From Armatimonadota bacterium (lineage in GTDB: Bacteria > Armatimonadota > UBA5829 > DTJY01), in assembly GCA_023511795.1 (NCBI GenBank), contig JAIMAU010000002.1:124001-188000 (forward strand): a DNA stretch of 64,000 nucleotides, written 5' to 3'. Numbering within the stretch: the stretch's first letter is position 1; the number at the start of each line of letters is the position of its first letter. The position numbers and the translations under genes are program-made. The notes under the pieces were generated by a model. That model did not search any database. It was given only the letters and a program-made list of their open reading frames with translations, and was not told the origin of the DNA. Positions 838 through 60,093 of the stretch are shown here, one piece after another.

Positions 838-1572
838 CTATTGGCCATGCTCGAGCCGCATCTCGGGAGCAGAGCGGTGGATGTAAAAAGGAACGAGCAA
901 AAGGGGGTCGGATGTTTCACCGGCAGCAATTTTTTCTAAGGTCAGCCTCGCTAGAATTGAAGCCTTTGGATAGGAAAGCCATTTGGATGCCGGGACTACC
1001 CGGTCGCCAAGCGACTTGCTTAGTTCTTCCAAGGCGTCCTCTACGCCGTCCCCGCAGAAAATGATTCTGCGCTCTGATTTCTGGCTTTTTGTTTTGGGAT
1101 GTGGGGAGAGATTCTGGGCCATCTTAATTACTTCATTTATTGGTCCAGCCGAGTAGTCGGTAATCTGCTTAATTTTTCCATTGCATGTGTGAAAGAAAGC
1201 CCAGTATACCTCACCCTTTCGAACTTTCACAAGCGGACAGACGGTCGCATTGGGAAGGTAATCGAATTGATGGGCTAGAAGGTCGAGTGTGATGATTCCA
1301 ACGATTGGGATATTGAGCACTTGAGCAAGGGTTTTTGCTGTTGCAACTCCGATTCGCAAGCCAGTAAACGATCCAGGTCCGAGTGAAACCCCAATGCAGT
1401 TAAGGTCTTTAATTCTCAGGGTGCAGTCTTTAAGCATTGAAACAATATCTGGCATCAACCGCCGAGAGAGGTCCATTTTGTGAGCAAAGTTGTATTCGGC
1501 GAGTAGGTTATTCTCGTCGGCAACTGCGATGCTTGAGGTGTCTGTTGTTGTATCTAATGTCAATACTTTCAT
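838..1572 (-). CDS. tsaB: tRNA threonylcarbamoyladenosine biosynthesis protein TsaB
   Basis: TsaB is the non-catalytic partner of TsaD in forming the universal t6A37 modification on ANN-decoding tRNAs. The protein starts MKVLTLDTTTDTSS, the phosphate-1-like segment of the ASKHA fold, and has the family signature SLGPGSFTGLRIG around residues 68-80, followed by VKVRKGEVYWAFF. Its length of 244 residues is normal for TsaB. I chose the ATG at 1572 rather than the in-frame GTG at 1578 because homologs begin at this methionine; no clear SD is visible for either. The shorter sequence around IIFCGDGVEDALEE is the variable C-terminal half. It is a single gene convergent with nothing, reading towards serA. 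Confidence 0.92.
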   Translation of the reverse strand: MKVLTLDTTTDTSSIAVADENNLLAEYNFAHKMDLSRRLMPDIVSMLKDCTLRIKDLNCIGVSLGPGSFTGLRIGVATAKTLAQVLNIPIVGIITLDLLAHQFDYLPNATVCPLVKVRKGEVYWAFFHTCNGKIKQITDYSAGPINEVIKMAQNLSPHPKTKSQKSERRIIFCGDGVEDALEELSKSLGDRVVPASKWLSYPKASILARLTLEKIAAGETSDPLLLVPFYIHRSAPEMRLEHGQ

Positions 1573-1614
1573 TGGCACATGTAATTATATTCCCACGTGT
1601 CGATACGGTCAATG

Positions 1615-1643
1615 TTGCCAAACCAAGGCTTGCGTGGTAGAAT
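1615..1643 (+). promoter_or_regulatory. sigma70-type promoter for the STN gene pair
   Basis: TTGCCA (1615-1620), a 17-base spacer and TAGAAT (1638-1643). It lies about 70 bases ahead of the TTG start at 1712 and probably drives the coupled genes up to 4921. Confidence 0.6.
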
Positions 1644-1711
1644 GCGAATAGTAGACCCTCAGTTTGGGCATATACGCCTTAGGCATTTTCTACAATTAAG
1701 GAGTGATAACC

Positions 1712-19174: not shown

Positions 19175-19186
19175 CTAGATTAGAAA

Positions 19187-19320
19187 CCCCACGGTGCCGT
19201 GTGCCTAACAAGTTTTTGAACCCGTAGAGCACGGGCGGGTGCCCTCACGATTGCTTTGCGATTCCCCAAAAGAAATTTTGAGCGGGGCTGCCACGCCACA
19301 ACCGAATCAGGCCCCATTTT
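19187..19320 (+). ncRNA. ssrS: candidate 6S RNA (RNA polymerase regulator)
   Basis: No protein reading frame explains the 355-base gap upstream of rarA. Reading plus, GTGCCGTG (19194-19201) pairs with CACGCCAC (19292-19299) with one mismatch, and GCC (19203-19205) can extend it with GGC, closing a long rod. Inside is a bubble strand with GTTTTTGAACCC followed by the hairpin CCCGTAGAGCACGGG, then an apical hairpin ATTGCTTTGCGAT (19250-19262), and a 3' strand hairpin CAAAAGAAATTTTG. The TTTGAACC strand next to a small hairpin in a central bubble recalls 6S RNAs, and 6S genes are often beside rarA. A TTTGCT/TAGATT pair (19153-19181) could be its promoter. Length is short for 6S, so ends are uncertain. 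Confidence 0.45.
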
Positions 19321-19440
19321 ACTTTGAGTGTCGGCTCAAAACTTCCTCGGCCAAATCACGAACACAGCAGGGTTTCTCGACAATCCTGTGGTGCTATTTT
19401 GATAATACCATATGATAGTGGAATTTGCAACCTGGTATTC

Positions 19441-56623: not shown

Positions 56624-58999
56624 TTAGGCTGCACACATATTTTTTCGGCGTCTTTTGTCTGCATACATTGCCTCGTCAGCTTTTGCAATGAGCGTGCGCA
56701 CATCCGAACCATCTTCAGGATAAGTTGCGACACCTATACTAACTCCAAGGCGGAACGGCTTATCATGAGGAAGGTTAGGGACGTACTCTTCAACTGCGGC
56801 TTTTATTCTTTCGGCGGTTTCAATTGCTTCATGCTTTTCAGTTTCTGGGAGAACGATAATGAATTCGTCCCCAGCGCACCGGCATACTAGATCATAGTCC
56901 CTCACTTGAGAAAGGAAGACTTTACCAATCTCCGAAAGCACGATATCTCCTTGCTGATGCCCAAAGGTGTCATTTATGGGCTTGAAGTTGTCAAGGTCAA
57001 GGCCAAGAACAGATACTGGCTTAAAAGTGCGCTTTGCTCGGCTTAATTCTTGCTCAAGGTGCATAAAAAGATATCTTGCATTGTGTAAGCCAGTCAACGC
57101 ATCGGTAAGGGCGGACTCTTTCGTTCGCTCAAAGAGTAGGGCATTTTGGATTGCCTTACCTACCTGTGGCGCAACCGTGCAAAGGATGTGGAAGTCTTCT
57201 TCGCTGAAGGCTTGGTCCTTAGTATCATAAAGGTTTATTGTGCCGATTACTTTGTCTCCATGTGTAATTGGTACTATCATCACGCTTTTTAGTTCAATCC
57301 AGCGTCCAAAGAGCTGTCTGAGCATTACATCGTTTCTGTCATATACGGCTATAAGACCCTCACCAGTTTCAGCGACTACGCCGGTAAGACCTTGGCCTAT
57401 AATTGTGCGTCCTCCCTCAAAGTAATCAGCGTTTACTCCAACGGCAATCCGTGCAAAAAGCTTGTTTGACTCTTCATCTTTGAGGAATATGACACACGTT
57501 GAGCATGCAATCATATTGCTTATCTTGTTAGCTATTAGGTTTAATACCTCGTCGAGATTGAGACTTGTACTTGCTGTCTGCGCTATCTCAAACATTGCTA
57601 GGAATTCGTGGCTTGCCCTGGAAAGCTCTTCTGCAACACTTGTTTGTGGTGCCTTGGGTTTATCAGCTTTCCCAGGTTTTTTTGTATCGAGGCTTGCAGA
57701 AATCTCGGCGATTTCCTCGTTATTTAGGCCGGGGATATTTCCCTTTGCAATCGCCCGTTCGAAGGCACGGACAACTGCTGGATCGAACTGCGTTCCATTA
57801 GCTTTTCTAATGTAGTCCAAGGCTTGCTGGGGGCTGTAGCTTGGACGATAAGAACGCTTGGAAGTCATTGCGTCGTAGACATCCGCAATAGCCAAGATCC
57901 TTGCACCTAAAGGAATCTCTTCACCTTTGAGCCCATCAGGATATCCTGTACCATCCCACCGCTCATGGTGGCTACGTATCATTGCACCGACAGGCCATGG
58001 GAAACTTACACTGTCGAGTATCTTTTGGCCAAGAGCTGAATGTGTCTGGATGGTTGTCATGTCATGGGAGTCAAATTTTCCTGGCTTCAGCAAAACATGC
58101 TCGGGGACACCGAGCTTCCCAACGTCGTGGAGGAGCGCCGCAGTCCGAACTCCTTCGACTTCGGTTGGGAACAGGTCCATTTCTTGTGCGATTGCCACGG
58201 AGATTGACTCCACGTTTGCCGTATGAGACCTTGCAAAGCGGTCTTTTGCATCGATGGCGGTGACTATTGACTGAAGGGTTGACAGGTAGACGTCCGCGAG
58301 TTTATTCGGAAGCGCATTGCTAGGGACGGATTTTTTGGGTGGTAAAAACTCCATATATGTCTGCTTTGCTAGATAGACGATTGGTAGGACAAGGAGCATT
58401 GGGTCCCATGAGTAAAGTTCATAGAGCACGCGAACAGTCAACGCGAGAGCGATTCCCGAAGCCAATTCAACCATCGGGGGTGCGTTAAGCTCTAGTCGTT
58501 CGCGGAGTGAATTTCCTGCCAACAATTTTGTTGTCATCGCTTCTGCAAACGTGAGTATGGCAAAGCATATAATTGCAGGCGAAAGTAGCACGACTGCTTC
58601 CGAAATGAAATTAGCGGGACAAATGAGATCATCAAGTTTTGCATAAGTGATGGCTGACAGCACTCCAGCAACTGCGCCACCCATGAATCTTGCTACGAAC
58701 TTATTTCTTGGAGCAATAACGGTTTTACCATCAGGTCGAGCATGGCACGTAGCGGTTATAGCTCCAATTAATAGTCCACCGGGAATTCCAAAGTTAATTG
58801 CTGCGGCATAAGTAAGTGTGCCGGCTGACGAACGGCCTCCGTCTTGCTGAAACAGGTAACATCCCTTAATGCTTGTAAGAATCGCCAGCAGAGCGTGGAC
58901 TACAAGCGCATTGGCGTAGTGGGACCCAAAGGAAAAAACTGTCAGTATAGTAACCCAAAGTAATGCAAACGTGATAGTAGCAAGTCGTTCGTTCTTCAT
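56624..58999 (-). CDS. membrane HD-GYP/GAF/GGDEF cyclic-di-GMP enzyme
   Basis: A 791-residue protein with both c-di-GMP synthesis and breakdown modules. Residues 1-215 have six to eight transmembrane segments (MHYT/7TM-like sensor). HD-GYP spans about 235-420: HDVGKLGVPE (HD at 291-292) and HHERWDGTGYPDG (344-355), with the GYP motif intact, then DVYDAMTSKRSYR. A GAF domain is at about 468-620 and GGDEF at 625-790. The cyclase signature is AGDEF (709-713), a permitted GGDEF variant, and RDYD (700-703) five residues before is the inhibitory I-site. ATG 58999 lacks a neat SD. It lies about 120 bases from the Cys-rich gene and riboswitch. Net activity (cyclase or phosphodiesterase) needs assay. 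Confidence 0.92.
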   Translation of the reverse strand: MKNERLATITFALLWVTILTVFSFGSHYANALVVHALLAILTSIKGCYLFQQDGGRSSAGTLTYAAAINFGIPGGLLIGAITATCHARPDGKTVIAPRNKFVARFMGGAVAGVLSAITYAKLDDLICPANFISEAVVLLSPAIICFAILTFAEAMTTKLLAGNSLRERLELNAPPMVELASGIALALTVRVLYELYSWDPMLLVLPIVYLAKQTYMEFLPPKKSVPSNALPNKLADVYLSTLQSIVTAIDAKDRFARSHTANVESISVAIAQEMDLFPTEVEGVRTAALLHDVGKLGVPEHVLLKPGKFDSHDMTTIQTHSALGQKILDSVSFPWPVGAMIRSHHERWDGTGYPDGLKGEEIPLGARILAIADVYDAMTSKRSYRPSYSPQQALDYIRKANGTQFDPAVVRAFERAIAKGNIPGLNNEEIAEISASLDTKKPGKADKPKAPQTSVAEELSRASHEFLAMFEIAQTASTSLNLDEVLNLIANKISNMIACSTCVIFLKDEESNKLFARIAVGVNADYFEGGRTIIGQGLTGVVAETGEGLIAVYDRNDVMLRQLFGRWIELKSVMIVPITHGDKVIGTINLYDTKDQAFSEEDFHILCTVAPQVGKAIQNALLFERTKESALTDALTGLHNARYLFMHLEQELSRAKRTFKPVSVLGLDLDNFKPINDTFGHQQGDIVLSEIGKVFLSQVRDYDLVCRCAGDEFIIVLPETEKHEAIETAERIKAAVEEYVPNLPHDKPFRLGVSIGVATYPEDGSDVRTLIAKADEAMYADKRRRKNMCAA

Positions 59000-59116: not shown

Positions 59117-59317
59117 TTATGTTTTTGTTTCTTGGTTTAAATATTTCAACGCAGTTTGGTATACCCGACAAGTTTGATATTCGGAAGAATGTCTTTTAGG
59201 ACAGCAGGGGCTTTTTTCAACATCCCAGCAGTTGCAGTCGTTTAAGTACGCGGGGCAGTTCAGATAAAAGCTCGCGGGACATCCTCTCACGTCGTAGTTG
59301 CTACATACATTGGCCAT
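59117..59317 (-). CDS. 66-residue cysteine-rich protein under a c-di-GMP riboswitch
   Basis: From ATG 59317 (AAGGAGG seven bases ahead) the protein has 66 residues and eight cysteines. CPAYLNDCNCWDVEKSPCC resembles the C-P-A-Y...C-W...C cysteine clusters that occur in signalling proteins of anaerobes and in small CW-type proteins; the pattern suggests an iron-sulfur or disulfide cluster. There is no signal peptide, so it is probably cytoplasmic. Upstream on the same RNA lies a c-di-GMP-I riboswitch and a terminator-like hairpin. The stop is 118 bases before the HD-GYP/GGDEF gene start. Function unknown; a redox or second-messenger role is inference. Confidence 0.75.
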   Translation of the reverse strand: MANVCSNYDVRGCPASFYLNCPAYLNDCNCWDVEKSPCCPKRHSSEYQTCRVYQTALKYLNQETKT

Positions 59318-59383
59318 TTTATCCTCCTTGGCTAATGGCCTTTGAGCCCCCATATCGTTTATCCGAAAATCCCCAAACGCAAA

Positions 59384-59442
59384 CCAGGCTGCCGAAATTC
59401 CTAGCGCTCTTTAATCAATCTTCGCTTGCTTCGGCAGCCTGG
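59384..59442 (-). terminator. hairpin with U-rich tail in the riboswitch expression platform
   Basis: On the minus strand CCAGGCTGCCGAA (59442-59430) and its exact complement (59396-59384) form a 13-bp stem over a 33-base loop, followed by TTTGCGTTTGG. It lies about 45 nt after the riboswitch core and about 65 nt before the Cys-rich gene start. It could act as the regulated terminator. Part of the loop could also pair elsewhere; on/off sense is unknown. Confidence 0.62.
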
Positions 59443-59488
59443 CAGTCATCCGAACGCAGCAGCCAGCTCAATTCTTCACTCATCCTCC

Positions 59489-59557
59489 GGCAGTTTCCGG
59501 CGCCACATTCGGTTTAGACCCATAGCTTTGCGTCTCCGCCTTTCGGTCGGATTTGCC
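59489..59557 (-). ncRNA. c-di-GMP-I riboswitch (GEMM class)
   Basis: On the minus strand: GGCAAATCCG at 59557-59548, then a stem capped by a GAAA tetraloop (ACCGAAAGGC), then GACGCAAAGC (59534-59525) containing the conserved A-rich linker, then TATGGGTCTAAACC (tetraloop-receptor side), and GCCGG then TGCC (59492-59489) closing on the first GGC. This order matches the GEMM-I consensus, including the base equivalent to Vc2 G20 (first G of GGC, 59557) and A47 in GCAAAG, the two ligand contacts, which favours c-di-GMP over cGAMP. The core is compact (69 nt). It precedes the Cys-rich gene, in the same region as the c-di-GMP enzyme gene. Confidence 0.88.
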
Positions 59558-59673
59558 TTTTTCGGTAAGCCTTGACCAAATTGTCTTCCATTTTACTTAT
59601 GCCATATAATTGCGGCTCGAGTACCCGTAGATTTACTGGTTTTGGTCTAAGGCTACCGATAAGGATAAGGTTA

Positions 59674-60093
59674 TCAACCCTCAACTTTCGCCTTGAATCG
59701 TCGGAGATCTTCCTCAAGTTCGGAATCGAAGCGGCTGCCTACGTATAGTGCCTCAGCCACATCTCCCAGAAAGCCTGCTGGCGGCTCATACTCGATGTGG
59801 ACGGTGAGCTGGGTTTTTCCATCCACCGGCTCGAACCTTACTTCGCCGCTGTTTTGTAGTCCAGATACCGACCTCCAGCCGATTACTTTGTCTTCTTCGA
59901 CCTTGGTTGTTTCTGCTTCCCATTCTTCGTCGAGGCCTGCAACCTTAGCTTTCCAATGCGATCTTCTACCATCAAGCATCACAACATCTTTAATGTGCGA
60001 CATAAAAGTGGGGAAATTTTCGAAATTTTGCCACATTTGGAATACCTTGTGAACAGGTGCGTTTATTACAATGGACTTTTCATGAACCACCAT
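59674..60093 (-). CDS. SRPBCC-family (polyketide cyclase/START-like) protein
   Basis: A 139-residue helix-grip fold protein of the SRPBCC superfamily. The start MVVHEKSIVINAPVHKVFQM with WQNFENFPTFMSHIKDV matches the polyketide cyclase/dehydrase and Bet v1-like lipid-binding proteins; SHWKAKVAGLDEEWEAETTK and WRSVSGLQNSGEVRF are the following beta strands. GGAGAG lies about 7 bases ahead of ATG 60093. It is transcribed away from the glycosidase gene and ends upstream of the riboswitch. Such proteins bind a hydrophobic ligand or act as a cyclase; ligand unknown. Confidence 0.85.
   Translation of the reverse strand: MVVHEKSIVINAPVHKVFQMWQNFENFPTFMSHIKDVVMLDGRRSHWKAKVAGLDEEWEAETTKVEEDKVIGWRSVSGLQNSGEVRFEPVDGKTQLTVHIEYEPPAGFLGDVAEALYVGSRFDSELEEDLRRFKAKVEG

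Follow-up and report, generated by a model that had tools for sequence, protein, structure and literature searches.

A cysteine-cluster mini-protein in a riboswitch-associated cyclic di-GMP operon of Armatimonadota: a candidate partner of HD-GYP/GGDEF enzymes

Several described systems close to the locus reported here belong to cyclic di-GMP (c-di-GMP) signaling. In the diguanylate cyclase DgcZ, a zinc-controlled CZB domain adjusts the enzyme (PMC8846402). HD-GYP enzymes have di- or trinuclear metal sites and are stimulated by Fe and Mn (PMC8177086), and c-di-GMP-I riboswitches govern diverse genes (PMC7266159). A further point of comparison is NCBI's two-CW domain (NF045718 two_CW_domain), whose description states no role. 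The open-access literature yielded no paper on the two-CW domain or on DUF6812 and nothing on c-di-GMP riboswitches of Armatimonadota, and its titles and abstract starts contain no description of the mini-protein discussed below. A c-di-GMP operon that includes a putative diverged relative of this unexplained cysteine domain is thus not described in the literature covered. Such an operon lies in the window, the whole stretch of 64,000 nucleotides that was analyzed (Table 1).

Table 1. Positions of the mini-protein gene and associated features in the window.
Feature	Coordinates	Strand	Evidence
66-aa CPAS/CW cysteine-cluster mini-protein gene	59117..59317	(-)	ORF and translation, orthologues, dN/dS
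Shine-Dalgarno-like AGGAGG	59323..59328	(-)	Sequence; 5 nt upstream of the mini-protein ATG
13-bp perfect inverted repeat	59384..59442 (arms 59384-59396 and 59430-59442)	(-)	Sequence and folds
c-di-GMP-I riboswitch aptamer	59429..59566	(-)	RF01051 68.7 bits, RF03167 59.5 bits (cmscan, genome search)
Membrane HD-GYP-GAF-GGDEF protein gene	56624..58999	(-)	Pfam and motifs; 117 bp downstream of the mini-protein gene

Translation of the minus-strand ORF 59317-59117 gives MANVCSNYDVRGCPASFYLNCPAYLNDCNCWDVEKSPCCPKRHSSEYQTCRVYQTALKYLNQETKT, a protein of 66 aa (before the stop) with eight cysteines. The original prediction had drawn attention to a C-P-A-Y-x5-C-W-x5-C spacing, which is accurate up to its last spacer: the motif reads C21-P-A-Y-x5-C30-W-x6-C38-C39, with six rather than five residues between CW and the next cysteine. 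The copy in the sister species is 89% identical, and the dN/dS of the gene between the two species is 0.155. Because of these values and the stand-alone orthologues in other genomes of the class and phylum, the ORF is not a product of chance; it encodes a genuine, conserved stand-alone protein. Its short length is what would speak for a spurious ORF, an explanation to which we assign negligible probability given the conservation across many genera, the low dN/dS, the ribosome-binding site, and the constant gene context.

Members of the family share the frame C-x(5-7)-GCPASxYLxC-xAY-x4-NCWE-x4-PCC-x6-C-x2-C-x-VY, and all 28 members of alignment A3 contain 8 to 11 cysteines. The window copy is slightly atypical, with Tyr47 at a position where nearly all relatives have Cys and an additional Cys at 28. 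Alignment A1 includes four sequences that were excluded from A2 and A3, namely L017 (without the cysteine frame), L015 (with an eight-residue deletion), and the fused L002 and L025. A3 also excludes L058 and L059 as near-copies of L057, and the weak matches L018-L024 and L026-L028 were left out of A1-A3 altogether. When the genome itself and 60 relatives were searched, 23 of the 61 had a match at E<=0.1, weak matches counted. At E<=0.001, the broader A3 profile found matches in 45 of the 291 phylum genomes, taken as Armatimonadota by record titles. Of these 45, 16 have the gene in stand-alone form: 15 match at E<=1.6e-21, and the sixteenth is G003, where the copy is missing eight residues, one conserved Cys among them. 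Thirteen of these 16 carriers fall within the window's class of 28 genomes (G000-G027) and comprise the genome itself, the sister species, and 11 further genomes; three lie elsewhere in the phylum, and 15 of the 28 class genomes are without the stand-alone gene.

A scan of named genomes, a set that partly overlaps the class genomes, gave 25 loci with relatives of the mini-protein. Their titles name Armatimonadota/Armatimonadetes, Bacillota/Firmicutes, Actinobacteria/Actinomycetota, Wallbacteria, Desantisbacteria, Nitrospira, Marinifilum, and unplaced bacteria, a spread across phyla that rests on record titles, which can mislead for metagenome bins. No match was found by tblastn for the window protein among plasmids or for the L043 protein among phages.

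The weaker matches in the phylum represent the same cysteine module within larger proteins. It occurs in MerR-type regulators (Pfam run on one of them) and in DUF6812-type proteins, including the genome's own paralogue L002 (Pfam run on L002 only). In an unnamed family with multiple membrane spans (L117-L124 and L126), the module lies between membrane segments, and an insert splits its two cysteine halves. In L086 (match near 1501-1644, minus strand), it is fused to PilZ (23.7 bits, cut-off 22.5), which by domain prediction gives the module a further connection with c-di-GMP. Together with fusions to HTH domains, these architectures bear out the original proposal that such a module normally belongs to larger sensors. 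That proposal also described the protein as standing alone, which is true of the polypeptide, where no other domain is present, but the gene itself is part of a c-di-GMP operon.

The protein was further said to be unnamed, and profile searches agree. The window protein matched no NCBIfam family at E<=10, and its only Pfam match, LUC7 at E 0.8, was not above the cut-off; nor does it reach the curated cut-off of 35 bits for NF045718. Searches with the alignment likewise returned no Pfam or NCBIfam model over its threshold. A clear match assigning the protein to a named family of different function, sought as the finding that would overturn the proposal, is absent, and two_CW_domain is the nearest family. 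Eight of the 18 rows of A1 match NF045718, all under the cut-off and with a best E of 0.033, and the own genome contains no NF045718 match at E<=0.1. Two-CW matches in relatives stand by themselves or are joined to parts of HTH, GAF/kinase-like, or PAS-like type (the last two assigned by eye). When the family profile was aligned with the two-CW profile (hhalign), the probability was 93.9 and E was 1.5e-7; the alignment score was 36.1, whereas none of 200 column shuffles scored above 18.9 and reversing the alignment also lowered the score greatly. A second shuffle control, meant to fix the cysteine columns, did not strictly preserve their spacing, since gap-rich columns move, and was given no weight. 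By this profile comparison, the mini-protein family is a probable diverged relative of the two-CW domain. Sequence searches of the PDB with the protein and the alignment returned nothing better than E 0.36. Both AlphaFold2 predictions are of low quality (mean pLDDT 60 and 67), and a Foldseek search of the PDB with the latter, a poor model of the L043 relative, returned no matches.

The mini-protein gene lies 111 nt downstream of the aptamer on the same strand. The aptamer scores far above the RF01051 gathering cut-off of 35 and barely above that of the GGC variant model RF03167 (59). There are four RF01051 sites in the 3.1-Mb genome. Among the 13 class genomes with the mini-protein gene, 12 have an RF01051 match at the operon head on the same strand; in the thirteenth (G017), the upstream sequence stops after 355 bp at the contig end, and in G018 one more gene separates riboswitch and mini-protein gene. 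A c-di-GMP-I riboswitch was also present at eight of the 25 named-genome loci. Over 271 nt, the leaders of the window and the sister species differ by three substitutions and one 4-nt gap (~98% identity). Because they are near-identical despite synonymous divergence (dS 0.29 for the mini-protein gene, 0.16 for the HD-GYP gene), the leader is under constraint. One arm of the inverted repeat runs into the aptamer's 3' strand, and the repeat may accordingly form a hairpin that competes with the aptamer and serves as an expression platform. A simple finder detected no U-tract or intrinsic terminator after the window aptamer and no intrinsic terminator in 11 of 12 leaders, the exception being L112. 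A c-di-GMP riboswitch appears to control the mini-protein operon. For the original claim of RNA regulation the support is positional, an Rfam c-di-GMP-I aptamer lying upstream on the same strand.

Elsewhere in the same genome, a c-di-GMP-I riboswitch precedes a gene for a 113-aa FlgM-like anti-sigma factor, identified by eye (L029; G000:C24, aptamer 143-245). In the window, a SRPBCC/polyketide-cyclase-like gene lies directly upstream of the riboswitch leader (59674-60093, minus strand), and a 6S RNA is found at 19182-19376 on the minus strand (RF00013, 90.5 bits).

The gene downstream of the mini-protein gene encodes a membrane N-terminus followed by HD-GYP, GAF, and GGDEF domains. The HD-GYP metal motif is intact (ALLHDVGK, HHERWDGTGYP), and with its HD pair, HH...GYP motif, and HD_5 domain (Pfam, E 1.2e-38), the protein is a predicted HD-GYP phosphodiesterase. 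Its GGDEF motif reads AGDEF, and an RxxD I-site motif is present; the AGDEF form is active in Vibrio cholerae VCA0965 (PMC3974145). An HD-GYP or GGDEF gene adjoins the mini-protein gene in all 13 carrier genomes of the class, a constant placement that fits the earlier suggestion of a partner protein. With five GGDEF and 10 HD_5 matches in the own genome, such genes are few enough that chance adjacency for one gene is estimated at ~1%. Two class genomes show altered enzymes: Arg replaces the histidine of the HD motif in G014, and the HD-GAF-GGDEF frame is divided between two ORFs in G022.

The fullest gene order in the class runs from the HD-GYP-GAF-GGDEF gene through the small gene to a gene for a membrane protein with an altered GGDEF. 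RxxD is retained in all nine listed downstream membrane proteins of this type, which would suit a c-di-GMP-binding role. Since the mini-protein gene sits between the two in several class genomes, the protein could be a structural adaptor only, a zinc-stabilized mini-domain holding the HD-GYP-GAF-GGDEF enzyme and the downstream degenerate-GGDEF membrane protein together without any sensing. Small cysteine modules that recombine with many partners are typical of zinc-stabilized mini-domains, and the many fusion partners of this module fit that pattern. However, no degenerate-GGDEF gene directly follows the mini-protein gene in the window, the sister species, or G003, and at six of the named-genome loci (L041, L043, L045-L047, L052) the small gene is adjoined by HD genes alone; we consider a purely tethering function rather unlikely. 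A second alternative is that the protein acts as a metal chaperone and supplies iron to the di- or tri-iron site of the HD-GYP domain. The metal sites of these enzymes and the coupling of the mini-protein gene to HD-GYP genes are in its favor, but the MerR, HTH, and PilZ fusions of the module offer no HD-GYP site to load, and we regard loading of the enzyme as highly improbable.

The wider family shows how far the association extends. An HD or GGDEF gene is adjacent at 15 of the 25 named-genome loci. The 10 loci without one are titled Bacillota, Firmicutes, Wallbacteria, Actinomycetota/Actinomycetes, and two Armatimonadetes, so the link to c-di-GMP enzymes is not universal. Short cysteine-module genes at four loci titled Bacillota (L057-L060) have no c-di-GMP neighbors; genes for a MutL-like protein (L058) or a pyrroline-5-carboxylate reductase (L060) are nearby. 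At the six loci with HD genes alone, the HD-GYP-domain gene lies upstream of the small gene, as called by Pfam for L041, L043, L046, and L052, where the neighbor has a 7TM part, GAF, and HD_5, and by HD match plus motif for L045 and L047. The two genes overlap by 17 nt at L043 and L045. It is in records bearing the titles of other groups that the neighbor is of this 7TM-GAF-HD-GYP type. These loci bear on a further possibility, that the mini-protein is an output effector or small regulator with an unrelated target, such as pili, adhesion, or transcription, and does no more than share a c-di-GMP-controlled transcript. The diversity of genes under c-di-GMP-I riboswitches would allow this (PMC7266159), as would the T2SSE/PilT-like ATPase gene near some copies (L041, L061) and the fusions of the module to DNA-binding domains. 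Yet HD-GYP adjacency holds at the same six loci even though searches detected no riboswitch there. This speaks for a tie to the enzyme itself and makes an unrelated output distinctly unlikely.

We favor a role within c-di-GMP turnover, to which the protein is tied by gene order, riboswitch position, and the PilZ fusion. These three separate signs connect an unnamed cysteine module of many regulators to this pathway. Most likely, the mini-protein would be a small subunit or adaptor of HD-GYP/GGDEF enzymes, possibly with a metal or redox input. The eight conserved cysteines suggest metal binding, perhaps through two four-Cys zinc sites or an Fe-S cluster. The protein might act in trans, binding the neighboring HD-GYP-GAF-GGDEF enzyme, the degenerate-GGDEF membrane protein, or both, and passing a metal or redox signal to them. 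The riboswitch would make the amount of the mini-protein/enzyme unit follow c-di-GMP and thereby close a feedback loop. That a small cytoplasmic cysteine-cluster protein works in this way with the turnover enzymes, as a trans source of metal or redox input under riboswitch feedback, is a proposal we judge to be evenly poised. More doubtful, and offered tentatively, is its extension to several phyla, in which a stand-alone cysteine subunit would give c-di-GMP enzymes a trans metal/redox input at a riboswitch-set dose. If this is true, second-messenger enzymes would have a type of small sensory subunit that has not been described before. A trans-acting sensor subunit would also offer a route to what many HD-GYP enzymes sense, by way of a small protein that can be directly expressed and tested.

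Set against known systems, the mini-protein family has the cysteine order of the two-CW domain, C..C..CP..CW..C..CxxC-x-[FY], and is likewise found alone or fused to regulatory domains; it differs in its CPASxYLxC and PCC motifs, where the two-CW domain has a GTxCxG stretch. The own paralogue, a Cys-module/DUF6812 protein (L002 1243-1710), shares the same cysteine module at 36% identity but is fused to DUF6812 and encoded at a different genomic place. The operon resembles other c-di-GMP-I (GEMM) riboswitch operons in having an aptamer above the RF01051 and RF03167 cut-offs upstream of c-di-GMP genes, and is unlike those described in the literature covered in that its target includes an unnamed cysteine mini-protein. 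Neither the window protein nor any of the 18 A1 rows matches the Pfam CZB domain, and the likeness to DgcZ lies only in the functional idea that a metal/cysteine module tunes a c-di-GMP enzyme (PMC8846402). The CZB of DgcZ is a cis fusion, whereas the mini-protein is a separate polypeptide; the zinc-controlled CZB domain would thus be the cis analogue of the role proposed here in trans.
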